DNA from: a virus
Strand: one strand, 5' to 3'
DNA: 23,483 bases
IMG/VR virus record: IMGVR_UViG_3300030294_000162
Coordinates: 1 to 23,483 of that record
Both the position numbers and the translations under genes were made by a program. The notes beneath the pieces were generated by a model. It searched no databases and was not told the DNA's origin. It was given only the letters and a program-made list of their open reading frames with translations. Below are positions 3,001-23,483 of the stretch, piece by piece (within the stretch, counting starts at the first letter, position 1; the number at the start of each line of letters is the position of its first letter).

Positions 3001-3680
3001 TTTTCGCCTCGTAATCGTTCTGTTAAAAAAGCATAAAGTCCACCAGCAGACTGTTTTGCCGCTGCTATATCCGCATCGGATATTCCAAGTAAAGATCCAA
3101 GTTTTGTCCGCTGTGCATTTTTCCCCGTAATAATATCGGCGACGTCGCGCATTAATATGTTTTCCTGTAACCCCATGGCTTTACCAGTTGTAGTAAGAGT
3201 GGATGCAAGTTCTAATGTTTGGCCAATTGTCATCTTTGCATTTAAGGCGGCTGGAAGCATAGCTCTGAATACATCCGATATTTCTTTTGTTGATGATCCA
3301 GTTAATATTGCCTGATCGTTTAACTGAGCCATCAAGTCTTTTGACATACTCAAGGCACTTCCCCAAGATATCGCCTCGCCATTTAATAATCCCATAGACA
3401 TTAAAGTGCCGGCCATACTTATACTGCCGGTTTCCATTGTTTTATAAAAGTCCTCAGCTGCGCCTAATGTAGAATCAAATGCGTCTCTAAGTCCGTTTAT
3501 TCCGGCTATTGCCAAGGCATATCCAGTTGCATTACTCAACGTACTATTTACTAAACCAACGCTTGCACCAAAGGATTCCATAGCTTGGGCAGTTTCTTGT
3601 GCAGAATTATTGACTTGTTTAAAGGCTGTACTGGCTAAATCTTTGCCGATAATTTGAATTTGTACATCATTAGCTCCCAT
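1..3680 (-). CDS. Tape measure protein with lytic transglycosylase (SLT) domain, C-terminus off the window
   Basis: The frame is open from ATG 3680 to the left edge (at least 1226 codons, no stop), so the gene is 3'-partial. The protein should set tail length and pass into the host envelope on infection. The N-terminal 300 residues resemble phage tape measure proteins (short hydrophobic and Gly/Ala-rich helical stretches). An Ala-rich middle holds three degenerate 39-residue repeats. A charged segment follows, then at about residues 748-845 a lysozyme-like SLT domain. This domain has a catalytic-type Glu in [15 protein letters not shown], then [18 protein letters not shown], and an AYNAGPQAV signature. 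Such a domain would cleave peptidoglycan during DNA entry. A long Lys/Glu/Gln-rich coiled-coil-like region follows. The ATG overlaps the stop of the G-T frame (TAATG), and AGGAGG lies 8 nt upstream. Position right after the tail chaperones is the standard one for this gene. Confidence 0.95.
2041..2397 (-). repeat. Three tandem degenerate 39-residue repeats within the tape measure protein
   Basis: In the tape measure frame, three consecutive units begin [36 protein letters not shown] and [18 protein letters not shown], each about 39 residues apart. Each has an aliphatic/Ala helix after the G-Q-x-E motif, then a second Ala-rich helix. DNA identity between units is low, so this is an old protein-level repeat and not a recent duplication. 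Tape measure repeats are thought to adjust tail length in steps. Here the role is inferred. Confidence 0.75.
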
Positions 3681-4365
3681 TATGCTATTTCCTCCTCGAT
3701 GCGATTTACTTCAAAAAATTCCAATGCCTGTATTTTATATAAGGTTGCGGGTGTCACATCAATATTTAATGTTTTCGCGACAATTGGCAGGACGTTGTAA
3801 TCGAGCCCCATAGGCATAGACCCAATCGCTCCCATCCCCACACCAATAACTCTGGTTCGCCATTGCGTGCGTATGGCCAGCCAGAGTTCCCATGCCTCTC
3901 TATTTTCTTCCCATAATTCTGGGCGTTTAAATTCACATTCTTCGCAATCTGCCTGCGTACATTCGTTTAAATCCAGAGCAGCTGTACAATATTTAAGCCG
4001 CCCTATAATCCAGTGCCAGGCAGCTATTAGTTTTTTTCCGCGAAATCATCCCGATATGTCATTCCAAAAACAAAGTCTGCAAAGCTTACGCAAACGTTAT
4101 TAGGCAGTGTCGAATCAAATTTGAAATCCTTAAAAATATGTTCCGCCATCCAGTCGAACATTTCATCTTTAATCTCAAATACATTCCGCGGATCTCCACT
4201 TTTTATTTTAAAAAAATTAAGATTCGCAGCATCCAGCTCTTTTCTTTCGTTTCGTGTCAAGGATCGCGCGGCTGGTAACTTTTTTTCTTTCGCCAACTCT
4301 GCGAAATAATTCCGTTTTTTTTCATATTCTTCTTTTGCTTTTTCTACTTTATCTTGATTGTCCAT
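3680..4365 (-). CDS. Tail assembly chaperone G-T fusion made by -1 ribosomal frameshift
   Basis: Genes G and T share one start. After Asn112 (codons AAA AAC at 4035-4030) the ribosome is predicted to slip back one base. It then reads CTA ATA GCT from 4030 and continues 116 codons to TAA 3682-3680, giving about 228 residues. The T part has no ATG of its own near the junction. It contains WHWIIGRL, a Cys cluster ([13 protein letters not shown]), an [11 protein letters not shown] segment and [10 protein letters not shown], which I recognise as DUF1799-like, the usual frameshifted partner of phage tail chaperones. In lambda, gpG and gpGT coat and fold the tape measure protein and recruit tail tube subunits. 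The next gene, whose ATG overlaps this stop, is the tape measure. The frame shows no internal stop, and otherwise 346 bases (3681-4026) would be empty. Confidence 0.9.
3996..4036 (-). other. -1 programmed frameshift site: A AAA AAC slippery heptamer plus downstream stem-loop
   Basis: The heptamer A AAA AAC occupies 4036-4030, in the correct phase (gaa AAA AAC). Two stop triplets (TAA TAG) follow in frame 0. Four nt after the heptamer a 7-bp stem can form: AGCTGCC (4025-4019) with GGCGGCT (4002-3996), including one T-G pair and a 16-nt loop. Heptamer, short spacer and stem are the classic components of bacterial/phage -1 frameshifting. The stem assignment is by eye and has not been folded computationally. 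Confidence 0.88.
4027..4365 (-). CDS. Tail assembly chaperone G (frame-0 product)
   Basis: This 112-residue protein is highly charged at its N-terminus ([16 protein letters not shown]). Its middle contains [16 protein letters not shown] and its end [18 protein letters not shown]. Size, position between tail tube and tape measure, and the terminal slippery sequence identify it as a gpG-type tail chaperone, although sequence similarity to lambda gpG is not evident to me. ATG 4365 is preferred over ATG 4371 because GGAGG lies 7 nt before the former but directly abuts the latter. Most ribosomes should stop at TAA 4029-4027; a minority make the G-T fusion. Confidence 0.85.
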   Translation of the reverse strand: MDNQDKVEKAKEEYEKKRNYFAELAKEKKLPAARSLTRNERKELDAANLNFFKIKSGDPRNVFEIKDEMFDWMAEHIFKDFKFDSTLPNNVCVSFADFVFGMTYRDDFAEKN

Positions 4366-5721: not shown

Positions 5722-6237
5722 CTAATAAATAATATTTTCGCCCATTGCAGGCTCTAGCTCTGTTGTCAAAACCATGTATCCCGGAAATTGCGGGAAATAG
5801 GCTTGTGTGTCGATATTGTACTCAATTTTTGATATAGGAAAGCTATTATCAATGAGTACTTGTTGTAACGTCTCATAGATCAACTGACCAAAATCATCTG
5901 TTTCATACATTCCTAAAAACTCAATCACGTTACCAGTCAAAGTTTCTGACCATTTCACCGTTTCCCCATCAACTAATATATTTTCATTTGCAATTGTCCA
6001 CGATACACACAATCCATAGGACAAAACATCCTGATTCCCGCCTTCCGCTTTGATTCCGGGCAAAATAAAAATTGCCGGACAATGTTTTTTGTCAGGCAAT
6101 TTTTTTCCATTAACCCCCATAAATATGGTTGGCTTTTTCCCGTATTTATTCATGCAAAAATCATTTATTTCTGTTGAATCCATGATAATATCACGCCATC
6201 GCATAGCCATGGTTTTAATTTTTAATGTCATTTCCAT
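5722..6237 (-). CDS. Tail completion/terminator-like protein (gpU position)
   Basis: A 171-residue protein lying between the HK97-gp10/gpZ-like gene and the tail tube gene, which is the slot of the tail terminator that caps the tube and joins it to the head. It starts MEMTLKIKTMAMRWRDI and has the alternating beta strands (YGLCVSWTIANENILVD, FPGYMVLTTELEP) and helix (LIYETLQQVLI) seen in small tail-terminator folds. I do not recognise a specific family. ATG 6237 is chosen because AAGGAG lies 11 nt upstream. A longer frame to 6333 has no ribosome binding site and would overlap the preceding gene by 59 nt. Confidence 0.65.
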   Translation of the reverse strand: MEMTLKIKTMAMRWRDIIMDSTEINDFCMNKYGKKPTIFMGVNGKKLPDKKHCPAIFILPGIKAEGGNQDVLSYGLCVSWTIANENILVDGETVKWSETLTGNVIEFLGMYETDDFGQLIYETLQQVLIDNSFPISKIEYNIDTQAYFPQFPGYMVLTTELEPAMGENIIY

Positions 6238-11698: not shown

Positions 11699-11907
11699 GT
11701 ATCCCTCAATATAACTCGTTTTGATCTTCCACAAGAAGAAGTATTCCCCGCACCACTTGCCAATAGTTTATTTATTCCTGAACTTATATCGCCAAGATCG
11801 GCTCTACGGTTTTTTACGTTTCCATCCTGGTATTCTTGGCTATTTAGTGCTTTTATTTCTGCTGCTACATATGCATCCAACCTAGCTTTTTGAATATCAT
11901 CCGCCAT
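11695..11907 (-). CDS. gpW-like head-tail joining protein (DUF6148-like)
   Basis: A 70-residue protein between large terminase and portal, the exact slot of lambda gpW. Its sequence (ARLDAYVAAEIKALNSQEYQ, then RRADLGDISSGINKL) fits the DUF6148-like group found in Bacillota phages, with a helix, a short beta hairpin and a second helix. Such proteins sit at the connector and prevent DNA loss from filled heads. AAGGGG lies 9 nt before ATG 11907. The C-terminus is Ser/Gly/Asn-rich and probably flexible. Confidence 0.75.
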   Translation of the reverse strand: MADDIQKARLDAYVAAEIKALNSQEYQDGNVKNRRADLGDISSGINKLLASGAGNTSSCGRSKRVILRDT

Positions 11908-11910
11908 AGT

Positions 11911-13779
11911 TTACAACCCCTTTTTTATACATCCATATTGTTGTTTTTTATTTTCTGTATTTTTTTCTATATTTTCACCACCGCTTGATTGTTCATTTAT
12001 AAGTTTTTCATAAACTGTCCAATCCGGATTTACGCTGTAAAGACAGGCTAAATTATAAATTTGCAAATCAATCGGTTCATTTCGTTTGTCTTCCGCTATA
12101 TTTACCCATACTTTTTCAAACCTTCCCTTTACGATTTTTTCTTGCAATTGTTCAGATAGCAGCCCCTTATAATAAGCACCATCATAGCCGCGTCGATCAT
12201 CTAAGGGGAAATGCAGGAAATATGGTCCTGGTTCTGTTTTTTCTTTGAGTCTTTGCAAAATATATTGTTTACCATCATTTACCCCAATTAGTATGAGCGG
12301 TAACGTTGGGTACCCATCCGCTTTACCAAGTTTATACAAAATAGGTATGCCAAACGCTTGATGTCCTTTGATTGCATATCTTTGTTTGTATCTATTTTTA
12401 TCACAATATTGATAAACATTTTTACTATAATGCCCACCAGAATCTATAAATGTTCTGGCTACTTTTATTCCTTTTCCATTTGCAAATCTATAGGTTCGAT
12501 CAAGCTGCTGATCGAGTGAATCCCATGTTGCGTCCTGATCTGGTACACCTAAAATAACACCTTTTTTTATTCCCCATCGTTCTTCATCTTTTCCCCAACC
12601 TGCAATTTCATATTCTAGTCGATTATCCTGCGTATCAACAGCAGCGGTCAGCACCAAAACCCCATCTGGCAATTCTGCGGCATATTCTTCGCGCCGTTTC
12701 ATAAGAATATCAATGTTTTTTATTTCACCCGTTGGCTTATATAACTCTGCTAGCCGTGTATTTACAAACGTTTTTAAAGATTCCGGTGCATCTTTAACGA
12801 CCAAATATTCTTGTACGATCGTTTTCCATGACAACCAAGGGCTTGCAAATGCGTTAACGTGAAAAGACCGAACATCTGTAATGTTCGGATTTAGAATTAT
12901 ATATTTTTGTTCTGTAGCTTTCATTTCTCGTTCATAAAATTCATGTCCACAATCTGGACAACGCCATTTTACAGAATCAACTCTGTAAGATTTTCTTTCA
13001 TCAATCTCAAATGTCTCAAACTCATAGATCATATTCCAAATCGTGACCCAGTGGAATTCTTTGCAGTTCGGACATTTATGCTGCCATTCCTCTTGTGTTC
13101 CAAGCATGTACTCACGATAAATCCTACTTTTTAGATCTGTTGGCGTGGAAAATAAACCAATAATGTGATTCCAAAAATTTGATGTTCTTTTTATTCCTAA
13201 GTCAACCGGATCACCTTCCGTTCCTGCTGATTTTTCAAATCTATCTACTTCGTCATATACTAAAACGCGGATACTTCGCTTTGCGAGTCCTGATGGTGCA
13301 TTGGCGCCGACAAGAGCAAGATATCCGCCGGGGAAAATCTTTTTTAATATAGTATTTTTGCTACTTCTTGATTTTTGTTCATGTATTCTTTCCGCTAATA
13401 CCGGAGTCCTATTAACCGTCGGCGTAAGTCGTTCTTTTGACCAGTCTTCGGCATCCCCGAGCGCTGGTTGAACCATCAGTATTGGACAAGGGTCTAAATG
13501 AATAAATCTGCCTAAAACATTAAACAAAATTTCTGATTTACCAAGTTGTGCACTAATCATAGCAATGACTTTATGCACGCCCATTGCTGTGAAAGCATCC
13601 ATAATTTCTTTTTGATATGGGACTCGACTTGTATTCCATTTCCCTGGTTCTGCGCCATATTCTTCTGGGATAAATCTGTATTCATCTGCCCATTCAGATA
13701 CGCTCATACGTGGCGGCGGAGCTGCCATGCTGAGAATTTTTTTAAATAAATCAATTGTTTTCTTCGGTATCTTCGTCAT
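11911..13779 (-). CDS. Terminase large subunit, GpA family
   Basis: About 622 residues, the motor and nuclease that packages DNA. Near the N-terminus MSVSEWADEYRFIPEEYGAE and WNTSRVPYQKEIMDAF are diagnostic of the GpA family. A deviant Walker A is seen at SAQLGKSE (76-83) and Walker B at LVYDEVD (173-179). Two Cys pairs (C236/C239 and C273/C276) form a zinc-ribbon pattern. The nuclease part begins with AAVDTQDNRLEYEIAGWG (first Asp at 382) and continues with FIDSGGHYSK. GpA-type enzymes make staggered cos ends. ATG 13779 is chosen because GGTGA lies about 8-9 nt upstream; TTG 13809 and ATG 13806 lack a site. It overlaps the small subunit by 29 nt. Confidence 0.95.
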   Translation of the reverse strand: MTKIPKKTIDLFKKILSMAAPPPRMSVSEWADEYRFIPEEYGAEPGKWNTSRVPYQKEIMDAFTAMGVHKVIAMISAQLGKSEILFNVLGRFIHLDPCPILMVQPALGDAEDWSKERLTPTVNRTPVLAERIHEQKSRSSKNTILKKIFPGGYLALVGANAPSGLAKRSIRVLVYDEVDRFEKSAGTEGDPVDLGIKRTSNFWNHIIGLFSTPTDLKSRIYREYMLGTQEEWQHKCPNCKEFHWVTIWNMIYEFETFEIDERKSYRVDSVKWRCPDCGHEFYEREMKATEQKYIILNPNITDVRSFHVNAFASPWLSWKTIVQEYLVVKDAPESLKTFVNTRLAELYKPTGEIKNIDILMKRREEYAAELPDGVLVLTAAVDTQDNRLEYEIAGWGKDEERWGIKKGVILGVPDQDATWDSLDQQLDRTYRFANGKGIKVARTFIDSGGHYSKNVYQYCDKNRYKQRYAIKGHQAFGIPILYKLGKADGYPTLPLILIGVNDGKQYILQRLKEKTEPGPYFLHFPLDDRRGYDGAYYKGLLSEQLQEKIVKGRFEKVWVNIAEDKRNEPIDLQIYNLACLYSVNPDWTVYEKLINEQSSGGENIEKNTENKKQQYGCIKKGL

Positions 13780-14269
13780 CAATGGCTTCACCAAGCTTCG
13801 ATGCATCAAAAGAAGACAGTGCTGTTAAGGCTCCGTTTATTTCTTCTGTCAACATTTCATTAATTTCATCGGTGTTTTTCCCCTCTATTCTTGGTGACAT
13901 CTTGTAAGGAATTGCCAGCATTTGCCTTTTAAATACAGTAACCATTCCCCCAACCGCCAATTCAATATCCGATGTGTTATGCATTTCGTTCTTCAATTCC
14001 GCCAATTTCATCTCAGTAAGTTCTCGTTTTGCCTTTTCATGGAGCGCCTTTTCATGGTCTAAGGATAACTCCCCATTTTCATCACTTTCACCACTGTGCG
14101 ATTTGTAGAAATTCTTTAAACTTTCGATGACAACAACAGCTCCATTTTCAGTTCGAACAATTGTTTCTTCTTTGACTAATTGACTAACTCTTTGTTGTGT
14201 AATTCCAAGGACTCGTGCCATTTCCGTTTGGGTCGTGGTCGTGTCTTTTAAATTCTTGGAAATTTTCAT
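13751..14269 (-). CDS. Terminase small subunit, Nu1-like
   Basis: A 172-residue protein. A winged helix-turn-helix is seen at about residues 13-45: TQTEMARVLGITQQRVSQLV followed by a wing (VRTENGAVVVIESL). It is then charged and helical (HEKAKRELTEMKLAELKNEM), with a C-terminal acidic tail. This is the domain order of lambda Nu1 (DNA binding at cos, dimerisation, contact with the large subunit). It lies directly before the large subunit, and the noncoding stretch upstream (14270-14429) is the likely place of its DNA target. GGGGGTGA lies 4 nt before ATG 14269. Confidence 0.88.
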   Translation of the reverse strand: MKISKNLKDTTTTQTEMARVLGITQQRVSQLVKEETIVRTENGAVVVIESLKNFYKSHSGESDENGELSLDHEKALHEKAKRELTEMKLAELKNEMHNTSDIELAVGGMVTVFKRQMLAIPYKMSPRIEGKNTDEINEMLTEEINGALTALSSFDASKLGEAIDDEDTEENN

Positions 14270-14330
14270 TTTGTCACCCCCAATTTATTCAAATTCTACA
14301 AACAAGCGCCAAAAAAAATTTGTATCTAGA

Positions 14331-14356
14331 AAACCTTTGCGGGCTTCGCGACCCCT
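14331..14356 (-). other. Candidate cos site (GC-rich core upstream of small terminase gene)
   Basis: On the minus strand a GC-rich core (AGGGGTCGCGAAGCCCGC) followed by AAAGGTTTTC stands out in an otherwise A+T-rich noncoding stretch about 70-90 nt before the small terminase gene. It contains the palindrome TCGCGA flanked by GGG and CCC-type runs, i.e. partial twofold symmetry. The GGTTTTC that follows recalls the flank of lambda cosN. GpA/Nu1 terminases cut at cos, and cos lies just upstream of the small subunit gene in lambda. The exact cleavage positions cannot be read from the sequence. Confidence 0.45.
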
Positions 14357-14386
14357 GTGCCCTATTTTTTCCCAGAAGTACCTTTT

Positions 14387-14430
14387 GATAATGTAACTCA
14401 TTATCTTTTATTTTGTATGATAATGATAAT
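14387..14430. promoter_or_regulatory. GATAAT repeat block, Fur-box-like or terminase-binding repeats
   Basis: On the plus strand GATAATG-TAACT-CATTATC (14387-14405) is a perfect 7-bp inverted repeat with a 5-nt centre. It matches the classical 19-bp Fur box at 16 of 19 positions. A direct repeat GATAATGATAAT follows at 14419-14430. The block lies between the Cys-rich small gene and the cos candidate. Two readings are possible: binding sites for a host metal regulator (Fur/Zur/PerR type), or cosB-like sites for the small terminase. The sequence alone does not choose. Confidence 0.4.
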
Positions 14431-14642
14431 TATTTAAAGGTCTTTCCATGGTCAGATCTGTACTTACCACTGCTCTTGTGGCAGCGGGGACAGCCTGTTT
14501 TCATCAGTGCCGCATAATTCTCACGTTTTGATTTACGACGATACGTAACGCATAAACGATTTATGTAGTAGACCTTATCATTGGTGCATTGCTGATTCTC
14601 ATTGAATTGGCATTTCTCCGTATTGCAATACAACACTGCCAT
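14430..14642 (-). CDS. Small Cys-rich protein, putative zinc binding
   Basis: A 70-residue basic protein with a Cys cluster YCNTEKCQFNENQQC and a further Cys in NRLCVTYRRK, then CPRCHKS near the end. The N-terminal pattern (C-x4-C-x-F-N-x5-C) is common in tiny phage proteins found near HNH and packaging genes. The C-terminal CxxCH could complete a second metal site. AAGGTGA lies 5 nt before ATG 14642, and the gene starts 4 nt after the HNH stop. Function unknown; DNA or partner-protein binding is a guess from its charge. Confidence 0.75.
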   Translation of the reverse strand: MAVLYCNTEKCQFNENQQCTNDKVYYINRLCVTYRRKSKRENYAALMKTGCPRCHKSSGKYRSDHGKTFK

Positions 14643-14646
14643 GTAC

Positions 14647-14943
14647 TCACCTTCCTTCAGGGTACAGCCTATTTAGGTAATCCTCACAATGCCGGCGTAT
14701 CGGTTCGCTATGTTTACTTTCCCGCTCTTGATGATGTTTGTAACATAGCAAGCATCCTTTTTCTGGTACGTCTTCTTTGTATGGGCCGCATGGCTCATGA
14801 TGCCATTTTTCGTTAATTGATACATAACCATCGCATCCTGGGACAATGCAGGTATAATTGTCACGTTCATGAATCTCTAGGTTTAATTTAATGATTGCAT
14901 TGCCTTTGAGTTTCACACGTTTGTGCTTGCTAAGGTCCATCAT
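14647..14943 (-). CDS. HNH-like endonuclease next to terminase
   Basis: A 98-residue protein with RDNYTCIVPGC, WHHEPCGPY and GCLLCYKHHQERE, the order of a beta-beta-alpha metal HNH fold: first Cys pair, His-His, Cys pair, final HH. The central Asn of the classical HNH motif is not evident. HNH proteins encoded beside terminase genes are known to act with terminase in cos cleavage and head morphogenesis in several phages, so a packaging role is likely. ATG 14943 (AAGGGG 9 nt upstream) is chosen over GTG 14964, which would start inside the leader. It is the first gene after the promoter/terminator switch. Confidence 0.8.
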   Translation of the reverse strand: MMDLSKHKRVKLKGNAIIKLNLEIHERDNYTCIVPGCDGYVSINEKWHHEPCGPYKEDVPEKGCLLCYKHHQERESKHSEPIRRHCEDYLNRLYPEGR

Positions 14944-14964
14944 AGTTCTGCGCCCCTTTCGCAC

Positions 14965-15000
14965 ATAAATAAAAGCGCCGTCGAATTATCGACAACGCTT
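14965..15000 (-). terminator. Intrinsic terminator, second of a tandem pair
   Basis: In minus-strand RNA a 12-bp stem (15000-14989 with 14984-14973, two U-G pairs, UAAU loop) is followed by UUAUUU. On the plus strand the two U-G pairs become C/A mismatches, so the structure belongs to leftward transcripts. It lies just before the ribosome binding site of the HNH gene. Confidence 0.75.
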
Positions 15001-15009
15001 AATTTTTTG

Positions 15010-15044
15010 TATAAGAAAAAGCCGTTAGCAAATGCCAACGGCTT
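15010..15044 (-). terminator. Intrinsic terminator, first of a tandem pair
   Basis: Minus-strand RNA forms an 11-bp stem (15044-15034 with 15029-15019, one G-U pair) with an AUUU loop, and the stem runs into UUUUUCUU. On the plus strand the G-U pair becomes an A/C mismatch. It ends transcripts from the early region and would also stop RNA from the promoter at 15119-15091 unless prevented. Confidence 0.85.
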
Positions 15045-15052
15045 AGATATTT

Positions 15053-15066
15053 ATGTAAATTTACAT
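15053..15066. promoter_or_regulatory. Perfect 14-bp palindrome, candidate operator
   Basis: ATGTAAATTTACAT is a complete twofold palindrome located about 20-30 nt after the predicted transcription start of the leftward promoter and just before the first terminator. This is a suitable place for a repressor or an antitermination factor. With 14 of 14 symmetric bases in A+T-rich DNA it is suggestive but not proof. Confidence 0.45.
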
Positions 15067-15090
15067 TTAGAGACACGACCAATTAAATTC

Positions 15091-15119
15091 ATTTTAACCG
15101 ATTCGTCAAAAAATGTCAA
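15091..15119 (-). promoter_or_regulatory. Strong sigma-70-type promoter facing the packaging/structural genes
   Basis: The minus strand has a perfect -35 box TTGACA (15119-15114), a 17-bp spacer and a -10 box TAAAAT (15096-15091, 5 of 6 matches). Transcription should start near 15084 and enter the HNH and terminase genes after about 140 nt. It is the best promoter match I noticed. It directly follows the stop codon (15123-15121) of the last early gene. Confidence 0.8.
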
Positions 15120-15120
15120 A

Positions 15121-15450
15121 TTATCTTGATTCAAATAATCCACTACCTCCGGCAAGACCAGCATTAATTTGTGACAGAGACTTTTTCTTCATGGCGCTTG
15201 AATTACTCTTTCCATTGCTGCTTCCACCTCCGCCCTTTGCGGCTTCACCAGCTGGTAAATACTCTTTAGACGGCAGATTCGATTTATATTTTTCCTGCAT
15301 CATCTGTACAACTTCATCCCGTGGCTTTGATTCTATAGGATACCAGACTTCAATCCCACATTTTGGACATTTATAGAAATCATCCTGTTCGTTATATTTC
15401 ATAGGTACGCGGCAATCTTGGCAGAACCAAAGTCCTCTTTTTTCAGCCAT
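15121..15450 (-). CDS. Zinc-ribbon protein with Gly/Ser-rich tail
   Basis: A 109-residue protein. Residues 7-37 have the pattern FCQDC-x12-KCPKCGIEVWYP, a four-Cys zinc ribbon as in many nucleic-acid-binding proteins. The second half is Lys/Ser/Gly-rich and probably unstructured (GGGGSSNGKSNSS). ATG 15450 is preferred (AGAGG about 10 nt upstream) over ATG 15486, which lacks a site. It is the last gene before the terminators and promoter, so a regulatory role (for example as late activator or antiterminator) is conceivable. That is inferred from place alone. Confidence 0.7.
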   Translation of the reverse strand: MAEKRGLWFCQDCRVPMKYNEQDDFYKCPKCGIEVWYPIESKPRDEVVQMMQEKYKSNLPSKEYLPAGEAAKGGGGSSNGKSNSSAMKKKSLSQINAGLAGGSGLFESR

Positions 15451-15504
15451 GTTTTGATCAACCTCTTTTCTGCTGTCGCTTGACATAAAGTGTATGGGCT
15501 TGTT

Positions 15505-15744
15505 TTATTTTATAAATTCTTCACTTCTTTCGTTCAATACTTCTTTTGCTATATCCTTCATTTTTATTATTTCACAGCATCCAGTGCAGCAACTCCCCAT
15601 TGCTTTATACTGCAACTTTATAATCTTTTTTAATGCCAATTTATATTCCATATTGTCAGCCATGATTCCAGCGTTTGCCGATACCGTACACATTATTGTT
15701 ATTCCTATGGTCGCACCAATTACGCTGCATATAAAGTATCCCAA
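15505..15744 (-). CDS. Small membrane protein, DUF3789-like
   Basis: A 79-residue protein. Its first 25 residues (GYFICSVIGATIGITIMC) form one membrane helix with Gly spacing as in DUF3789-type phage proteins. The rest is charged with a Cys cluster (GSCCTGCCEIIK) and should face the cytoplasm. Start is TTG 15744, with GAGGAGG about 10 nt upstream in the end of the RusA gene; the first in-frame ATG would remove part of the helix. Function unknown. Confidence 0.6.
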   Translation of the reverse strand: MGYFICSVIGATIGITIMCTVSANAGIMADNMEYKLALKKIIKLQYKAMGSCCTGCCEIIKMKDIAKEVLNERSEEFIK

Positions 15745-15746
15745 TG

Positions 15747-16112
15747 TTATCCAACCTCCTCAATCAAAATCTCAACTCTTGGGTTGTTTTTATCTATATC
15801 AAATTCATCATGCAAATACTTTATCTGGTCCCACCCATCATTTTTAATTATTCGTCCATTTTGCATTGCATCTAAAATAAATTTTTTTGCAAAACAAATA
15901 TTATCTTTATCTCGCCTTTTATCTTTTTCCACCCAACAAAATTTCATACCAATTCTAGTTAATGTTTTTCCCCGCAGTGCTGCCTTGATGAATATAATGC
16001 AATCATTTTCCACCTGCCTCTTAAAGTTGGCTGCTTCATATTTATTCCCTCGACATGCATCTACATATTCATTTAGTCCTGGCAATCTCATAGGAATTAT
16101 TACTTTTATCAA
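15747..16112 (-). CDS. rusA: RusA-like Holliday junction resolvase
   Basis: A 121-residue protein matching the RusA family in length and motifs: an N-terminal strand with IKVIIPMRLPGLNEYVDA, a middle KDKRRDKDNICFAKKFILDA with acidic residues Asp68 and Asp70, and NDGWDQI with Asp92. RusA is a small dimeric, metal-dependent nuclease that cuts four-way junctions. In phages it resolves recombination intermediates and branched DNA before packaging. The start is TTG 16112 with GAGGG 6-7 nt upstream, which preserves the family N-terminus (an in-frame ATG seven codons later would not). Confidence 0.88.
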   Translation of the reverse strand: MIKVIIPMRLPGLNEYVDACRGNKYEAANFKRQVENDCIIFIKAALRGKTLTRIGMKFCWVEKDKRRDKDNICFAKKFILDAMQNGRIIKNDGWDQIKYLHDEFDIDKNNPRVEILIEEVG

Positions 16113-16113
16113 C

Positions 16114-16227
16114 TCAAACCCTCAGTTCTTCAATATCTTTTCTCCGCCGCCCGATGCGATTCTTTAAATGTCGAAGCGGTTGCACCCTGAATCTCAACCG
16201 CTTAATTATTTTTAGTATCCTTTTCAT
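16114..16227 (-). CDS. 37-residue Arg/Lys-rich small protein
   Basis: A short frame from ATG 16227 to TGA 16116-16114 fills the gap before the RusA gene. The product begins MKRILKIIKRLRFRVQPLRH and continues LKNRIGRRRKDIEEL. More than a third of its residues are Arg, Lys or His. GAAAGG lies 8 nt before the ATG, and the frame overlaps the upstream gene end by 26 nt and almost touches the RusA start. A nucleic-acid-binding or leader peptide role is possible. It may also be a chance ORF; absence of any other coding content there supports it. Confidence 0.5.
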   Translation of the reverse strand: MKRILKIIKRLRFRVQPLRHLKNRIGRRRKDIEELRV

Positions 16228-16408
16228 TCTTGAAACCTTTCTTTAACTTTTCCTCGATCTCAGCCAACGTATAACCGTTACATATCCATGTCATGTCCTC
16301 TGGGTTGTTAAAGCAAAGCCAATACCATGGACCGCCGTCATATCCTTTGTCGCGATCAAGATAAACTCCATATCGCTGTTCAATTTGTCGTTTTGATACA
16401 TTACTCAT
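16202..16408 (-). CDS. Small phage protein of unknown function
   Basis: A 68-residue protein. It has KRQIEQRYGVYLDRDKGYD, an aromatic-rich segment WYWLCFNNPEDMTWICNGYT and a charged helix (LAEIEEKLKKGFKNEKDTK). I do not recognise a family. The ATG overlaps the TGA that ends the frame of the amber-interrupted gene (ATGA) and has no good ribosome binding site of its own. Its translation therefore probably depended on ribosomes finishing that upstream frame. Confidence 0.7.
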   Translation of the reverse strand: MSNVSKRQIEQRYGVYLDRDKGYDGGPWYWLCFNNPEDMTWICNGYTLAEIEEKLKKGFKNEKDTKNN

Positions 16409-16692
16409 GTTAATGAGCCATCTATAAAAATAGCCCGTGGTTCTTTGCTATTTATAATGTTTATGAGCAAACCGCCCACGCCGATTGTTTTAGCCTCTTT
16501 ATCATTTTCATAATCTTCTATCTACATTTTTTCTAAAACCGCATCAACATCCATTGTTGGAAGTTCTAAGTCTCGTTCCCCACTGTCAAGGTCGCAAACT
16601 TCTTCTTCGTATTTATCAAAAGCTTGTTTTTCATCTTTTGCCCAGACCACTGCCCAATAAGGCATTTCCCCTGTAAATTCATAAAATTTCAC
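16405..16692 (-). pseudogene. Small phage gene split by one in-frame amber codon (pseudogene or readthrough)
   Basis: From GTG 16692 (AGGAGG 8 nt upstream) 56 codons are open (MKFYEFTGEMPYWAVVWAKD, then ELPTMDVDAVLEKM), followed by TAG at 16524-16522. The same frame continues for 38 sense codons (IEDYENDKEAKTIGVGGLL, then INIINSKEPRAIFIDGSLT) to TGA 16407-16405. That TGA overlaps the next gene's ATG as ATGA. The preserved frame and coupled junction indicate that both parts were one 94-95-residue protein. TAG is one substitution from CAG or AAG. TAG ends a gene normally at 22581-22579, so general reassignment of the codon is unlikely. Either a recent nonsense mutation or programmed readthrough is possible. 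The short form alone may also be made. Confidence 0.75.
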
Positions 16693-16710
16693 AGTTCATT
16701 CCTCCTGGTA

Positions 16711-17022
16711 TTATTTTTTATTACGATGAATTTTTAGAAAGTTTCTTTGTTCTGATTTTTTTGCTTCATGAATCAATATGATCTCTTTAAAAGTCTTTTC
16801 AATGCATTGTGGGCAAAAGTCCATTTTTCTCCATTCGGTAGAACACTCATCACACATTGGGCGACTGCATTTCACTAATTGCTCGGCAGTTATATCTTTT
16901 CCTTGGTAATCAAAAACCTTTTCATTTTCTGGTAAATCGAATATTACTCCAGCATAATCCATAGGAAAGTCACATAATTTAGTTGCGACTTTCCCACAAA
17001 ATACACAGGTCCCATTATCCAT
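16711..17022 (-). CDS. Zinc-binding small phage protein
   Basis: A 103-residue protein with three Cys pairs: CVFC near the N-terminus, MCDEC and FCPQC in the second half. A Gly/Asp-rich beta segment (DYAGVIFDLPENEKVFDYQG) lies between them. This is a zinc-ribbon/treble-clef-like arrangement. The tail is strongly basic (KKSEQRNFLKIHRNKK). ATG 17022 has GAGG about 11 nt upstream; GTG 17031 is too close to that site. Probably binds nucleic acid or another phage protein; the family is not recognised. Confidence 0.7.
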   Translation of the reverse strand: MDNGTCVFCGKVATKLCDFPMDYAGVIFDLPENEKVFDYQGKDITAEQLVKCSRPMCDECSTEWRKMDFCPQCIEKTFKEIILIHEAKKSEQRNFLKIHRNKK

Positions 17023-17035
17023 ATTGCCCACATCC

Positions 17036-17629
17036 TCAATCGATCATATCAAAATGCATTACTTTGTATTCTTTTTCCTTTAGACATTTCGAAAATGCAT
17101 TTCTTGCCCTTGTCCTATCTTCGCCCTGACCACCACCAGTACTAATTAAATAACCATGCCGTCCCATCCAATCGGTTTGTTGTCGACAATATAGTCCAGC
17201 GGCTTTTATTGCCTTTAAAATTTGTTCTTCACTCCATCCCGTTAATATTAAAAATGTACTATCAAGATTCGCCGTTCCTCCATCATCGCCAGTTACAGCT
17301 TCTTTTGATTTCTGATAAGCTTCTTTCAAATTTTCTGTTAGCTGTTCATATTTTGTTATAAGTCTACATCCGGTCGCCGCTTCACTCTCTATCACGTTCC
17401 TTCCTTTTAACAACTCGTCCCATTCGTCCATCCATTCTTTAACCGAAAATGTTCTGCTAAAGTATTTCTTACTAATTGCTTCGATATCCCGACGTTCCTT
17501 GAGTTCTTTCAAAATACTGTATTGTTGCTCATGATCTGTAGTATCTTGATTTTTCTCTTTATTCCAATCAATACTGTAAGATGCATTGTTTATCATTTCA
17601 TTTAACTTTTCATCGCTGATCCGTTCCAC
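17036..17629 (-). CDS. Phage protein of unknown function
   Basis: A 197-residue protein. The N-terminus (ERISDEKLNEMINNASYS, then ILKELKERRD) resembles the start of many phage accessory proteins that begin with this short helical 'DEKLNEMI' unit. The C-terminal half has WSEEQILKAIKAAGLYCRQQ and a Gly-rich STGGGQGEDRTRARNAF loop followed by a short basic helix, which is suggestive of nucleotide or nucleic acid contact but is not a standard P-loop. Starts at GTG 17629 with a GGGGG run about 6 nt upstream and overlaps the previous gene by 20 nt. Confidence 0.65.
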   Translation of the reverse strand: MERISDEKLNEMINNASYSIDWNKEKNQDTTDHEQQYSILKELKERRDIEAISKKYFSRTFSVKEWMDEWDELLKGRNVIESEAATGCRLITKYEQLTENLKEAYQKSKEAVTGDDGGTANLDSTFLILTGWSEEQILKAIKAAGLYCRQQTDWMGRHGYLISTGGGQGEDRTRARNAFSKCLKEKEYKVMHFDMID

Positions 17630-17810
17630 TGTCAGCCCCCCTTGGCATATTTAATATGTCTCCCTCAATTTCCAGATATACATAACGGCTGCTTTCTTTT
17701 ACGGGCTTGTTTGGATATATTGCTCTTATGACGTCCCAATCTTTTTTTCTGAACCGCAATGAAGTAAAAACTTTTCCACCACGCTCAATCCTTTTCATCA
17801 AATATCTCAT
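17610..17810 (-). CDS. Small phage protein of unknown function
   Basis: A 66-residue basic protein: MKRIERGGKVFTSLRFRKKD, DVIRAIYPNKP and ESSRYVYLEIEGDILNM in order. Alternating strands and a short helix suggest a compact alpha/beta fold. ATG 17810 is chosen because GGAG lies 8 nt upstream; the frame can be extended to ATG 17837, but no ribosome binding site precedes that. Overlaps the following gene's start by 20 nt. No family recognised. Confidence 0.55.
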   Translation of the reverse strand: MRYLMKRIERGGKVFTSLRFRKKDWDVIRAIYPNKPVKESSRYVYLEIEGDILNMPRGADSGTDQR

Positions 17811-17847
17811 CTGTATGTCTCCAATGCTGAATGTCATACTGCTATTT

Positions 17848-18243
17848 TTATAAATTGAAAATTAACATCTTTCCTTTTTGGTCCCACCGGCAGGAGAATT
17901 TTTTTCGTTCTCCTGCCTCTTTTCTTATTAACCGCATGAGTTGCCGACTGCTCAAAGATTTCCCGCTCCCTTGTTTACATATTTTCTTTGACGAATCCGT
18001 TCTTTCAGTCGGCTGAATAGCTATTGCTTTTTTCTGTTTATCGTATCCTATTTCCACATATTCTTCGGTTAGAAATTTCGACGCCTCCGCGCTTATATAT
18101 AGCTGATTGCTCATGGCGTATACTGACATTTCGCCCCTGGCTCGTTTTCGCTTCGTTATATGAAATATTTCAAAGTCAAATCCGTTAATTATATGGTTTC
18201 TTTCGCTTTTTGCGATTGCTTGGATACCTGCTGCATAGACCAT
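17848..18243 (-). CDS. Conserved-looking phage protein, possible DNA-binding beta domain
   Basis: A 131-residue basic protein. In the middle, SNQLYISAEASKFLTEEYVE followed by IGYDKQKKAIAIQPTE resembles the short beta unit common in phage proteins of early regions (strand, helix, 'V-E-I-x-Y-D', 'K-A-I-A-I-x-P'). This recalls swapped-hairpin transcription factors only loosely. The C-terminus (SSRQLMRLIRKEAGERKKF) is a basic helix that could bind nucleic acid. ATG 18243 is preceded by an A/G-rich AAAAGGGGGGG with a 5-nt spacer. Confidence 0.6.
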   Translation of the reverse strand: MVYAAGIQAIAKSERNHIINGFDFEIFHITKRKRARGEMSVYAMSNQLYISAEASKFLTEEYVEIGYDKQKKAIAIQPTERTDSSKKICKQGSGKSLSSRQLMRLIRKEAGERKKFSCRWDQKGKMLIFNL

Positions 18244-18258
18244 GAATGCCCCCCCTTT

Positions 18259-19383
18259 TCATGCCAAATTTATTGGATCATGATAGGTAGCAGCTTTTTG
18301 ATGAATTTGTCTGATCTGCGGATTCGATTCTGCTTGATCTATTAATACCGTTGCTTCCATACCTTCATCTGTGTAAATTACTTGATCTGCATTCTTCAAT
18401 TTTTTATGGCATGCACGACAACATGTTTTTGAATTGTAGACCAACGCTGCAAAATATTTTTGACCGCAAGAACATTCCACATGATAGAGTTTTTTCTCTG
18501 CGTAGGATTGCCTTGATGATATTTCTCGATGTTCTGTAAATTCATCCGGTGGTACGTCTTCCATGCTATCAATATGTAATGCTGCAATTTCTTGCGTATC
18601 GATGGCAAAAACAGAATCATCAATTCGGGCTGAACATATTGGGCGGTTATTCATTCCTTTGAATCCTTGATAAGTTAATTCGGCAAATTCTTTCGGTAAA
18701 AATCGATTTATCTTTTCTCCATTTTTAAAAACGATATAACATGCAACGCCTTTATCTTTTATGCGTTCAGTTTTTTCTTGGATGTCTTTGTCAATGGCTT
18801 CATTCTTTTCTGTCGGTTTAGCATTTTCAACCATGAGCGGTTCTCCTATATCATCCTTTGCAAAAATATTTTTTGATTCTAATTTTTGCGCGTCCGCTGG
18901 TGCCTCAACGTATGAATACTGACACACCGTTTTTGCTTCCGGATTAAGTGGATATACACCATACCGACTGAGAAGCTGGCGCAAGCGGCATTTTCTATAC
19001 TCTTGGCCATCACAAGTTTTACAAGTTTTTTCAATGACTAAGGCATACCAATCATTAAAATCATCGATACTCATAATGAATTGATTCTGAAATTTATTAA
19101 TTTCTTCGTATTCTTTTTTTGCTTTATCGCTCGGAACAAATATAATTGGCTCCAGCTTGCTGACTTGTTTTGCAAAATTGTAAGCAGCATCTTCGTCAAG
19201 AAACCCTTGTCTATATGTGATTGCTTTTTTTAACCATGTCAGTCCTGTTTTCAGACTCTTCATAAATTCCTTATCTGGATTTTTTGATTGCCCATATCCT
19301 TTAAAGATCTGATCCGCTGTCCCTAGAATCGTAACCAACCGGACAAAGGTCGTTTTTTCTTCCCTAGATAAATAACTATTCAT
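18259..19383 (-). CDS. DUF5651-domain protein with zinc-finger-like Cys clusters
   Basis: A 374-residue protein. The first 100 residues (YLSREEKTTFVRLVTILGTA, and LKTGLTWLKKAIT) match the DUF5651 domain known from Bacillota phages. Then follow CKTCDGQEYRKCRLRQLLSRYG (four-Cys site), a charged linker, an RNA/DNA-binding-like basic segment, and CSCGQKYFAAL with TCCRACHKKL (second site). Acts probably on nucleic acid in the early region; no biochemical role is established to my knowledge. A strong AAGGAGG inside the preceding small ORF serves ATG 19383. Confidence 0.75.
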   Translation of the reverse strand: MNSYLSREEKTTFVRLVTILGTADQIFKGYGQSKNPDKEFMKSLKTGLTWLKKAITYRQGFLDEDAAYNFAKQVSKLEPIIFVPSDKAKKEYEEINKFQNQFIMSIDDFNDWYALVIEKTCKTCDGQEYRKCRLRQLLSRYGVYPLNPEAKTVCQYSYVEAPADAQKLESKNIFAKDDIGEPLMVENAKPTEKNEAIDKDIQEKTERIKDKGVACYIVFKNGEKINRFLPKEFAELTYQGFKGMNNRPICSARIDDSVFAIDTQEIAALHIDSMEDVPPDEFTEHREISSRQSYAEKKLYHVECSCGQKYFAALVYNSKTCCRACHKKLKNADQVIYTDEGMEATVLIDQAESNPQIRQIHQKAATYHDPINLA

Positions 19384-19386
19384 TTT

Positions 19387-19548
19387 TTATTTGCCTCCTT
19401 GCAGCGTTATCGCTGGCTGATTATTTTGCCAATCAATTATTTTCTGCTCTCTGCGTTGCTTTTTGCGTCTGTGTTCCTTTTGGCGACGTCCCGCCCGCTG
19501 TGCACGGCATATATTGTTCATTGCTTCCCATGCCGTTTTATCATCCAT
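19387..19548 (-). CDS. 53-residue basic small protein
   Basis: A short frame from ATG 19548 to TAA 19389-19387. The product starts MDDKTAWEAMNNICRAQRAG and continues RRQKEHRRKKQRREQK, a run of Arg/Lys that would bind nucleic acid or charged partners. AAGG or GGG lies 9 and 5 nt upstream of the start. The frame ends four bases before the DUF5651 gene and contains that gene's ribosome binding site. No other coding content explains 19384-19673. Function unknown. Confidence 0.6.
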   Translation of the reverse strand: MDDKTAWEAMNNICRAQRAGRRQKEHRRKKQRREQKIIDWQNNQPAITLQGGK

Positions 19549-19673
19549 ATATCCCGACCTTGCCAAATTACCCGCCCCCTTATTTTCTCTAGATATATTC
19601 TTTTATCATGTCCAATTTATTAATATTTCTAGTTGGATATCACTGATTTTATCCACCGTCATTACGCCATCAA

Positions 19674-20000
19674 TTAGACCGTCTTCTCACTTTCTATCTT
19701 CGCCCCACATTCCGGGCAATATTTTATTTGGTCCTGCTCAATCAGCACTTTGTTGTCCCGCCCGCACTGTTTGCATATTCCTGTAACTTGCTTTTCATCA
19801 AATTCTTCAACTATTTTTATTACGGCCGAAATGTCTTTGTCTTTTCTTGGTATCCCACAGTCATATGCTTTTAACGGGCATTTATCGTTGCATTCTCTAC
19901 TTTCAAAACTGGTGCATATTTCATTCACCCGCTGTATATATTTTTTTGCAATCATATTTCCATTTTTGACTTTTGTTGTATCCATCTTTTTATTTTCCAT
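19674..20000 (-). CDS. Zinc-ribbon phage protein with C-P-L motif
   Basis: A 108-residue protein. The centre has CTSFESRECNDKCPLKAYDC, a compact Cys-rich unit found in many small phage proteins, followed by a helix (DISAVIKIVEEFDEKQ) and a C-terminal zinc ribbon CKQCGRDNK...YCPECGAK. Metal binding is very likely; function is unknown. ATG 20000 has GGGGAGG about 7-8 nt upstream, just after the stop of the DUF3102 gene. Confidence 0.75.
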   Translation of the reverse strand: MENKKMDTTKVKNGNMIAKKYIQRVNEICTSFESRECNDKCPLKAYDCGIPRKDKDISAVIKIVEEFDEKQVTGICKQCGRDNKVLIEQDQIKYCPECGAKIESEKTV

Positions 20001-20002
20001 AA

Positions 20003-20950
20003 TTACGCCTCCCCGACTTGTCCGCGAATCATATCAAGCACTTTTCCGGCTGCAGCCCGACATTTTGTTTTCATTTCTTCATTTTCTATCTTATCGATTG
20101 ACCCTAAAAGCTTTTCCGCATCATTTTGCACAATATCAAAATAGGTTTTGAATTCGAGTACGGCTTTTTCTTGTCCTGTAGCCGCCTGCAACTTTTCGAC
20201 TTGTTCATGTAGTGCTTTCAATTCTTGTTCTGTTGCTTCTGGGACTTTTTCGACTATCGTTGCCTCAATTGGCTCGGCAAGACGATCATTCAGTTCTTTC
20301 ACCTTGGCTTTTTGCTCTGCCAAGTCTTTTTTCAATTGCTTCAATTTTTCCTTATCCCCAGGTTTGGCTTCCGCAAGCTGTTTTTCAAGCTCCGCCGCAC
20401 GTTTGGATTCTTTTTCTTTATCCGCTGTCAGTTTTTCCTTTTCGGCAAGCAAATCAAAAGCTGTGTCTTCCGCTGTCTTTTTTGCTGTTTTTTCGGCTTC
20501 CAAGGCTTTAGATAACTTTTCGTTCTCGGCTTTTTCCTTGTCCCGTTCTTTAATTGCTTCCTGCAACTCCCTGGTACTCATGGAATCAACATCATTTTCC
20601 TTAATGAATTCTGCACGATCATCTTCGTCATGAATACCCAAAAGGGCGATTGCTTGTGTATAACTGAGTTCGGCAAACGCTTGCTGATTTGACTGTCCAA
20701 ATAGCTTTTCTTGCCCATTTCCGTATTCATTGAAAATCCTCATGAGGTTGGTGGCTGTTCTGTCGCTATAGTCAACGGACTGTTTCAGCCATTTTGTCCA
20801 ATTGCCATGGCCAACGGCGGCTTTTGCCTCCGCTAAACGCCGCCCAATTTCAATGCTTGCCTGTAACATGATTTTTTGTGTCTGACTCTTAATACTATTT
20901 ATTTCCGCTGCTATGATTTCCGGGGATCTTATCGCTGTGATTTCACTCAT
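20003..20950 (-). CDS. DUF3102-domain protein with long coiled coil
   Basis: A 315-residue protein. The first 110 residues match DUF3102: a helix (KIMLQASIEIGRRLAEAKAA), VGHGNWTKWLKQSVDYSDRT and ATNLMRIFNEYG, a helix-turn-helix-like unit. Residues 130-270 are a long Glu/Lys/Ala coiled coil. A short helical end follows. DUF3102 proteins are common in Gram-positive phages and mobile elements, often near ParB and PcfJ-like genes; their role in replication or partition is not established. ATG 20950 has GGAA 8 nt upstream; ATG 20956 is too near that site. Confidence 0.8.
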   Translation of the reverse strand: MSEITAIRSPEIIAAEINSIKSQTQKIMLQASIEIGRRLAEAKAAVGHGNWTKWLKQSVDYSDRTATNLMRIFNEYGNGQEKLFGQSNQQAFAELSYTQAIALLGIHDEDDRAEFIKENDVDSMSTRELQEAIKERDKEKAENEKLSKALEAEKTAKKTAEDTAFDLLAEKEKLTADKEKESKRAAELEKQLAEAKPGDKEKLKQLKKDLAEQKAKVKELNDRLAEPIEATIVEKVPEATEQELKALHEQVEKLQAATGQEKAVLEFKTYFDIVQNDAEKLLGSIDKIENEEMKTKCRAAAGKVLDMIRGQVGEA

Positions 20951-20968
20951 TTTCATTCTTCCTTTCGT

Positions 20969-22567
20969 TTATGCGCTTATTAGTGCCGGCAGCCTAACTT
21001 CTCGTACATCCCGGCAGGATTTCCATTCCACTCTGACTTTTTCCGCCCATTCAATGATTTCGGCATTTATCTTGGCATCATCTGATACGGGTTTATTCCG
21101 ATTTAGTTTGGCCTGAATGATTTTCCCGCCCATTACTTCGATACATGCAATGAGCTTTCCACAATCATCGGCTACTAGAACAATATGTGTTCCCCCATCC
21201 CTTACACGCTTGACGTAAGTCCCAACACAGTTGTGCAAGGTTTTCCCCACATAGACCAAGTCCTCCGAATGATTCGGGATAAAGAAGTTTATCAAATCCG
21301 TTTGCATTGACAGACGTTTTCTGATTGGCTCTGTGTTTTTAAATCGGCAGACTGGATTTCTTTCAAGCCGTTGTTTTTCTACAAGCCAGTCATGCAAGTC
21401 TCTAATTCTTATTCGGTCCCTTTTTATCTCAGTTTTCCACTCTGTTCCATTCGTACTCTGCATTCGGAAAATATCTCGCAAACTCTGGTGGTCTTCATCG
21501 ATCAATTTGACCAAATCACGTTCGTTATATATTCCTTCGTACCAGCTCAAGCCTGTAACCAGACTATACATGCTCATTTTGGTTGCATCATCTTCCCATT
21601 TTTTTACTTTTTCATATGCAGTTAAAAGATTGTTCTGATCTTTAAAAATCCTATGAAGCTTGCCTATCATCATGAAATTCATCGGTTTATCATGCACTAC
21701 ATGTCTGATTTTGCGTGTATCCGGTAGATTTGCCATTTGCAGTAGAGCAGTTATGCTATCTGGCGCCTTACGCATTTTCGGTATGTCGTATTCATCTACC
21801 GATAGCAGTGTAATCAAGCTGTTCCGGTAGTCAAGTATTCCCGTTCTCCAGGCTTCCGTGAGATTTGGCATATCGATTCCAATGATGCGATATGCAATGT
21901 TGAATAGCGGCAGAAGCATTGACCCATACTGGCTTCCTGGTGATATATACATTGAAGATACTGGATGGACAACTCTTTCAGACAGTTTTTTGACCACCCG
22001 TTCCCGTAGTATTTTTAACAGCTTGTTTATTTCCGCCCGGTACGGCGTAATCGTTTTATGGGCAAACAGGTAGCGCAAGATTGATAGATTAAATACCTCT
22101 GTTTTTAGTGGGTTTCCAAGTTCTACAGCTTCGCTGCCCTTCTGTTTAAAAAAGGTTTGCCGCTTTTTGATATCAAAACGGAATGTTTCTCTGTATAGTT
22201 GTTCGTGCCAATACTCTCCAGCTTTGCTGTCTGAATTCTCCTTGATTTCATTGCCAGCAACAGTCAATGTTAGGTGATGCTGAAATTCCTCTAACCGAAT
22301 ATACATGTTCAATGGTGCCGAATCGTGCCTCTGAACATGACAGATTTCATTTTCCCACTCGAGAATGGATTCTCGACATTTCGGGCAGTATCTCTCTTTC
22401 CCATCGAAACTTCCATATCCCATATAACCAGTACGTTTCCAAAGGCTCTTAAATTCATGGCCGCAAGCTGTGCAATAGGTTATTTCTTCCTGGCGGTCAT
22501 ACCATTGAGCCGTGCAGCATACGTATGAACGAAAAACTTTCTCTATATTCACTTCTGCGATTACCAT
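20969..22567 (-). CDS. PcfJ-like protein
   Basis: A 532-residue protein. The N-terminus has zinc-ligand pairs C32/C35 and C61/C64 (TYCTACGHEF, RYCPKC). The C-terminal 90 residues, starting at HNCVGTYVKRVRDGG (about 445) with IACIEV, GGKIIQAKLNRNKPVS, are the signature of the PcfJ family. PcfJ was named from the conjugative plasmid pCF10 and also occurs in many phages with its partner PcfK. Its biochemical role is not known to me. GGAGG lies 7 nt before ATG 22567 in the tail of the preceding gene, so the pair is one unit. Confidence 0.85.
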   Translation of the reverse strand: MVIAEVNIEKVFRSYVCCTAQWYDRQEEITYCTACGHEFKSLWKRTGYMGYGSFDGKERYCPKCRESILEWENEICHVQRHDSAPLNMYIRLEEFQHHLTLTVAGNEIKENSDSKAGEYWHEQLYRETFRFDIKKRQTFFKQKGSEAVELGNPLKTEVFNLSILRYLFAHKTITPYRAEINKLLKILRERVVKKLSERVVHPVSSMYISPGSQYGSMLLPLFNIAYRIIGIDMPNLTEAWRTGILDYRNSLITLLSVDEYDIPKMRKAPDSITALLQMANLPDTRKIRHVVHDKPMNFMMIGKLHRIFKDQNNLLTAYEKVKKWEDDATKMSMYSLVTGLSWYEGIYNERDLVKLIDEDHQSLRDIFRMQSTNGTEWKTEIKRDRIRIRDLHDWLVEKQRLERNPVCRFKNTEPIRKRLSMQTDLINFFIPNHSEDLVYVGKTLHNCVGTYVKRVRDGGTHIVLVADDCGKLIACIEVMGGKIIQAKLNRNKPVSDDAKINAEIIEWAEKVRVEWKSCRDVREVRLPALISA

Positions 22568-22578
22568 TTCCCCGCCTC

Positions 22579-22911
22579 CTAAATGTCTAGCAAAGCATCA
22601 ATGTCTAGGTTTATTCTGTTCTTTTTCTCCATGGGCGCTGGCACATCTGTTTCGTTTAAGCCGTAATATTCCATGATAATGGCAAAGCCTTCATCCGGGG
22701 TAAACATTGCGCAGCCGCCCGTGGCTTTCGCCTTTGCTTTATCTTTCATAAAGGCAAGGCTTCCATCAACCGTTTTTCCTTCTTGCATAATAGCCGCCGC
22801 ATCCGCTGGCGTTCCCTTGATATGGTCTATCATGTACTGCCCGATAAATTTTATATAAGGTTCTTTTGATTCCTTGATTTCCTCTTCTAATTTTGCAATT
22901 GCTTTTTCCAT
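22579..22911 (-). CDS. PcfK-like protein, AcrIIA9-family candidate
   Basis: A 110-residue protein: charged helix (EKAIAKLEEEIKESKEPYIK), FIGQYMIDHIKGTPADAAA, a segment LAFMKDKAKAKATGGCAMF, TPDEGFAIIMEYYGLNETD, and a short acidic tail. This is the PcfK family layout (helix, 'C-a-x-x-t-d-e', then a 'hYYg' helix end). The family, as I recall, also contains the Cas9 inhibitor AcrIIA9, so an anti-CRISPR function is possible but not shown. The gene ends with TAG. ATG 22911 has GGGAG 8 nt upstream; ATG 22929 overlaps the previous stop (TGATG) and could be used through coupling. Confidence 0.75.
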   Translation of the reverse strand: MEKAIAKLEEEIKESKEPYIKFIGQYMIDHIKGTPADAAAIMQEGKTVDGSLAFMKDKAKAKATGGCAMFTPDEGFAIIMEYYGLNETDVPAPMEKKNRINLDIDALLDI

Positions 22912-22928
22912 TCCGATATCTCCCATCA

Positions 22929-23483
22929 TCAGTTTTCTAAGTCAGATAAATCCTGCTGTACTCGCTCTAGCAGCTCACCCAAATATTCAATATGGGCGGC
23001 TCGTTTTGCTGCTCCATCTAGATTCCCCTGTTCTTCGTCAAAACTTTTCAAGTCTGCGATTCTGCCGATTTCACACTCCAACATGTTCATTGTCGACTTG
23101 ACAGCATAGATATTATTTTCAATATCCTCTATCGATCGTTGATGCATGGTGTTTTCATCTTCTTGTGTTTTTTTTGGTGTTGTTACTGCTTGATGGCTTT
23201 CTTTTTTTGCCGTTGCATCTTTTAATTTAGGCTTGCCATCCGTTTTTTCGTATACGGCTTTTTGATCCGCTGCCGACATGCTGGATAGTTCTGTTGCTGT
23301 ACTCATGCTGATATTTCCGTCTTTGAATTCTTCTTTAAGTTCCGGTGTAAGGCTCTTATCAATTTGTTCCATTCTGCCAACTGCACTTTTACTCATTTTT
23401 AAAGTATCCGCAATAATTTCACGCAAGCGCCCTGGTAATTGGTGGCCTGCTTCTTTATATTCTAAAAGCAATAATTTCAATTG
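22929..23483 (-). CDS. ParB-like protein, N-terminus beyond the window
   Basis: The frame is open from the right edge to TGA 22931-22929. No credible start is seen (the first TTG has no room for a site), so the gene continues to the right. Visible residues 1-60 hold the central ParB/Spo0J-type DNA-binding part: LKLLLLEYKEAGHQLPGRLR, EIIADTLKMSKSAVGRM (helix-turn-helix) and LKDGNISMSTATELSSM (EFKDGNIS...). The rest is charged and helical with ENNIYAVKSTMNMLECEIGR. The ParB nuclease-like N-terminal domain would lie outside. Phage ParB-like proteins regulate or nick DNA; here the role is unknown. Confidence 0.75.
   Translation of the reverse strand, partial: QLKLLLLEYKEAGHQLPGRLREIIADTLKMSKSAVGRMEQIDKSLTPELKEEFKDGNISMSTATELSSMSAADQKAVYEKTDGKPKLKDATAKKESHQAVTTPKKTQEDENTMHQRSIEDIENNIYAVKSTMNMLECEIGRIADLKSFDEEQGNLDGAAKRAAHIEYLGELLERVQQDLSDLEN

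Follow-up and report, generated by a model that had tools for sequence, protein, structure and literature searches.

Does a single in-frame amber codon in a small phage gene mark a young nonsense mutation, a site of functional readthrough, or something else? The gene lies in IMG/VR record IMGVR_UViG_3300030294_000162, whose 23,483 bases were analyzed as a whole (here called the window) and whose open frames run off both ends. The original prediction described 56 codons, a TAG, 38 further codons, and a TGA overlapping the ATG of the next gene, and this layout was found exactly as described on the minus strand, in both the sequence and its translation. The features are as follows.

16701 to 16706, minus strand: Shine-Dalgarno sequence AGGAGG, 8 nt ahead of the GTG start, read in the sequence
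16522 to 16692, minus strand: first part of the YosH-like gene, GTG start (16692 to 16690), 56 codons, and TAG, from the sequence and a phrog_3930 match
16522 to 16524, minus strand: in-frame TAG, codon 57; the aligned codon in the nearest relative is GTA (Val)
16405 to 16521, minus strand: tail after the TAG, 38 codons and TGA (16407 to 16405), a homolog of the family's C-terminal part, ending in the conserved motif (I/M)DGSL
16405 to 16408, minus strand: ATGA overlap between the TGA of the tail and the ATG of the next gene, read in the sequence
16202 to 16408, minus strand: next gene, 68 amino acids, with no evident ribosome binding site and no relatives detected

Under a first-order Markov model of the window, 38 codons would remain open after a stop by chance in about 8% of cases. 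It is the homology of the tail, and not its openness by itself, that places it above chance.

Family membership and conservation of the tail

A search of the extended product for a family had been proposed as one way to check the prediction. The product read through the TAG proved to be a full-length member of phrog_3930, the family of YosH of SPbeta (E value of 3e-11, residues 2 to 94 on positions 53 to 144 of a 145-position profile). The first 56 residues used alone as the query also matched this profile, through residues 1 to 39 (E value of 8.2e-11), and the tail added only 1.4 bits to the score (44.6 versus 43.2). Because the 38-residue tail alone gave no match to the phrog_3930 profile, direct sequence comparison was needed to assess it. 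No convincing match for the YosH-like family was found in Pfam or NCBIfam. All 17 members of one alignment (A5), the window gene included, matched phrog_3930. Known YosH-like proteins include those encoded by yosH of SPBc2, phi3T_163, and EF62_phi0013 of Enterococcus phage EF62phi. The window gene shares with them an N-terminal KF[YF]E..PY.AL motif, a domain of 86 to 96 amino acids, a C-terminal [IM]DGSL motif that is present in most of them, and a neighborhood of small genes in phages of Bacillota. Both family motifs (N-terminal KFYE...PY.A and C-terminal [IM]DGSL) were recovered in the window gene in alignments A4 and A5, the C-terminal one after the TAG. In the 44 homologous loci described below, and in yosH of SPBc2 and gp12 of Ray17, the frame continues through the position of the TAG, whereas the window copy is interrupted there; since it lacks one uninterrupted frame of about 86 to 96 codons, having a TAG at codon 57, the locus was filed as a broken YosH-like member. 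Apart from its single premature stop, the reading frame of the window gene is a normal and conserved one.

The nearest relative, P0002, is a protein of 96 amino acids with 52% identity to the window product end to end. It is encoded on two IMG/VR contigs from one sample (3300000313), which were found through a scan with the RusA protein, the homolog sitting just after RusA. The codon comparison that had been suggested gave a sense codon, GTA (Val), in P0002 at the column of the TAG. P0002 shares 18 of 37 aligned residues with the tail, and the BLOSUM62 local score of 84 compares with a maximum of 44 among 5,000 shuffles, while the two other frames of the same DNA scored 12 and 13, which is noise level. 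No shuffle of 2,000 scored as high as the tail against L117/L113 or against phi3T; the comparison with EF62phi was not significant (501 of 2,000 shuffles reached the score), and the homology of the tail thus rests mainly on P0002, L117/L113, and phi3T. After the TAG, differences from P0002 number 9, 14, and 22 at the first, second, and third codon positions, and dN/dS is about 0.35 (dN of 0.461, dS of 1.32), compared with about 0.61 (0.316/0.52) before it. These values do not point to a long period of relaxed selection downstream of the TAG; coming from a single distant relative, they have little power to date the stop, but they do show a tail free of decay. At the level of sequence, the frames before and after the TAG are thereby shown to be one ancestral gene and the tail to be real coding sequence.

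Homologs that all end at the TAG, or a downstream sequence with no conservation, had been named as evidence against the prediction. Neither was seen: the tail is conserved (0 of 5,000 shuffles), and in 44 of 44 homologous loci, none of which keeps the stop, the frame continues beyond the TAG position to its own end. These loci represent 31 distinct proteins and include many duplicates, several of them copies of one contig; two loci that are the window itself were left out. They encode 86 to 96 amino acids each, apart from one member of 117 amino acids (L023:4001-4354), which owes its length to a tandem duplication of roughly 25 internal residues. Also intact are yosH of SPBc2 (156 amino acids, the C-terminal part of which is the domain) and gp12 of Ray17 (94 amino acids). 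Of 14 further SPbeta-like copies, L141 alone is broken; the other 13 are open, two of them (L136 and L139) without an ATG at the aligned start. The openness of the homologs, together with the conservation of the tail, indicates that the TAG is derived and, among the copies compared, peculiar to the window. Relatives close enough to date it or to show it as a polymorphism were found neither by megablast (the whole window against phages and positions 11900 to 23483 against plasmids) nor by scans of viral and genome contigs with the P0001 protein. The exact DNA pattern around the TAG, with that codon left free, also had no match, and the closest terminase among viral contigs was 53% identical.

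Readings of the amber codon

The TAG is best read either as a nonsense lesion that recently struck an accessory gene or as a wrong base in the contig. We consider it probable that a single nonsense mutation has recently arisen in this YosH-like phage accessory gene of the phrog_3930 family. The original prediction had left the choice between a young nonsense mutation and readthrough, and the first of these is now well supported, by the full-length homologs, the sense codons at the aligned position, and the conserved tail; nothing positive emerged for the second. Ribosomes starting at the GTG at 16692 would stop at the TAG and release a fragment of 56 residues. In the structure predicted for P0002 (mean pLDDT of 74.8), two strands and a helix are followed by two more helices and a terminal strand. 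The TAG would cut this fold where helix 51-60 ends, removing helix 67-82 and strand 88-90, so that the fragment, lacking the last helix and the final strand, would be expected to be inactive. The model of the window protein itself was poor (mean pLDDT of 63.3).

Such a lesion could be tolerated because the YosH-like gene is accessory. In the broken SPbeta-like copy (L141:1501-1770, from IMGVR_UViG_2908369612_000002), 2 bases are inserted after codon 33 while the remaining frame is intact, and this independent frameshift suggests that the gene is probably dispensable. Taken together, the TAG in the window and the insertion in L141 indicate that lesions in YosH-like genes are sporadic and occur at different places. 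A published survey of bacterial genes (PMC7918605) describes in-frame stops as widespread and mostly short-lived, with ages like those of SNPs, and finds the largest number of them in the mobilome category; this provides a natural base rate for a sporadic stop in a phage gene. The sporadic stops it describes resemble the window case in being single in-frame stops in genes of mobile elements with purifying selection on both sides, but the survey required a stop to occur in at least two species, whereas the window stop is known from a single sequence. The lesion would in this sense be an ordinary one, as sporadic nonsense changes are common in mobile-element genes.

A base-calling or assembly error is a less probable explanation to which we still give appreciable weight; the phage gene would then be intact and encode a normal YosH-like protein of 95 amino acids. 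The window is a single IMG/VR record, exactly one base-level lesion was seen in a stretch that otherwise looks intact, a random single substitution in these genes would create a stop in about 5% of cases, and the tail shows no relaxed selection, all of which fit an error. On the other side, the sequence bears no mark of error, the window being free of N. In a metagenome contig, a wrong base and a real mutation would be indistinguishable by sequence.

The use of stop codons across the window bears on whether TAG could be read as sense. As terminators, the 28 other genes use TAA 16 times, TGA 10 times, and TAG 2 times; the TAG terminator claimed at 22581 to 22579 is present, and a second was found at 5724 to 5722. 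The list of 28 genes was built from open frames, so that internal stops could not show up in it, but a scan of TAG-joined frames, which tests for TAG only and not for frameshifts, found no second TAG-interrupted gene among the minus-strand genes. With one interrupted gene only and TAG terminating 2 of the 28 others, the earlier statement that wide reassignment of TAG is not supported stands. Stop-recoded phages exist, among them crAss-like phages in which TAG is read as glutamine. The window shares with such phages an in-frame TAG inside a gene, but differs in that only one such gene was seen, TAG still serves as a terminator, and no suppressor tRNA was detected in the window. No tRNA of any kind and no Rfam element was detected in the window, which is a fragment of the phage genome.

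Functional readthrough, in which some ribosomes would insert an amino acid at the TAG and yield a little full-length protein, with the dose of the next gene tied to it, appears improbable. The frame downstream of the TAG is intact and conserved, with dN/dS below 1, but this also fits a recent nonsense mutation. The survey in PMC7918605 makes the case that a gene is not necessarily lost through an in-frame stop. A possible genuine stop bypass is noted in a phage of Bacillota, Geobacillus virus E3, where gp69, a putative DNA gyrase (KP144388.1, 59519 to 63622; L128), is annotated as having an in-frame stop and peptides that indicate a fusion product, according to an annotation note only. Against readthrough are the absence of the stop from all 44 homologous loci, the two other genes that end in TAG, and the lack of a tRNA, and thus of a suppressor tRNA, in the window. 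Moreover, the RNA fold of the first 120 nt from the TAG is only mildly stable (z score of −2.2; 6 of 200 shuffles were as stable), and its strongest helix lies at the far 3′ end and not beside the TAG; no recoding signal was found adjoining the TAG. We give slightly less credence still to the idea that the amber serves as a dose switch in a host able to read TAG in part, by a natural suppressor or as a pyrrolysine-using member of the Bacillota; if true, it would limit both the full-length YosH-like protein and, through the ATGA, the 68-amino-acid protein.

Two further readings would make use of the pieces on either side of the stop. Translation might end at the TAG and restart inside the tail, giving two translated pieces, for which the tail offers an in-frame GTG at 16479, preceded 14 nt upstream by AGAGG, and a TTG at 16470. 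We think this very unlikely, as the tail has no in-frame ATG, the spacing is poor, a piece begun there would be without the conserved motif of the N terminus, and no homolog is divided in two such pieces. The least credible reading makes the 56-residue fragment a short protein with a function of its own and the tail a relic. The N-terminal 39 residues are indeed the best conserved part of the family, but helix 67-82 and strand 88-90 of the P0002 model lie beyond the cut, the tail lacks decay, and no intact homolog is as short as 56 amino acids. For annotation, the practical consequence of the preferred reading, a recent nonsense mutation, is that a gene caller reports a 56-amino-acid orphan and misses the broken YosH-like gene.

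Downstream gene, phage context, and modularity of the domain

The next gene was said to have no ribosome binding site of its own, and indeed no evident Shine-Dalgarno sequence lies upstream of 16408. It is probably translated by coupling through the ATGA, and the overlap makes a polar effect of the amber on this gene plausible: fewer ribosomes would arrive at the ATGA junction, and coupled translation of the 68-amino-acid product would be lowered. No homologs of this product were detected, and no overlapping gene like it was evident by eye after the YosH-like copy in L106.

The window encodes the genes of a tailed phage (terminase, portal, head protease, major head protein, and minor tail protein) together with a RusA-like resolvase. 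Decay of a whole prophage was considered and rejected, as the gene-poor-looking region at 1 to 4000 is one open frame that runs off the end of the window and is tape-measure-like by length and place. Relatives of the YosH-like and RusA-like genes come from phages or genomes of Enterococcus, Bacillus, Oceanobacillus, and Lactobacillus, and the host of the window phage is likely a member of the Bacillota.

Foldseek searches against the PDB gave no match for the P0002 model or the model of the window protein. Against viral models, the P0002 model matched an uncharacterized protein of 84 amino acids (E value of 4e-4) and, weakly, parts of two proteins from Lactobacillus phages Lenus and LpeD (E values of 0.016 and 0.053). 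The Lenus protein is named "Thoeris anti-defense 2-like," a Tad2 label that is a database name alone. The LpeD protein (MF787246.1; L144:1495-2112, minus strand) has 205 amino acids, with a YosH-like domain (residues 107 to 204, phrog_3930) fused behind a MazG-like domain (residues 1 to 106; PF03819 and PF01503 above the cutoff, phrog_1992 with an E value of 6e-46). In YosH of SPBc2, about 67 residues that gave no match in Pfam precede the domain. Judging from these architectures, the YosH-like domain is modular, standing alone in some phages and forming the C-terminal part of larger proteins elsewhere. No literature joining at least three of the terms Tad2, Thoeris, MazG, and Lactobacillus phage was found. 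The MazG fusion is a first hint that the uncharacterized YosH-like domain works alongside nucleotide-handling or counter-defense proteins, and a modular accessory role beside such proteins is a reasonable lead.

The RusA-like and YosH-like genes are close neighbors in the window (15747 to 16692) and in L106 and L108, the contigs from sample 3300000313. Their order is opposite, the YosH-like gene following RusA in L106 and L108 and preceding it in the window, and on the evidence of gene position this is a shuffling of small accessory genes around RusA.
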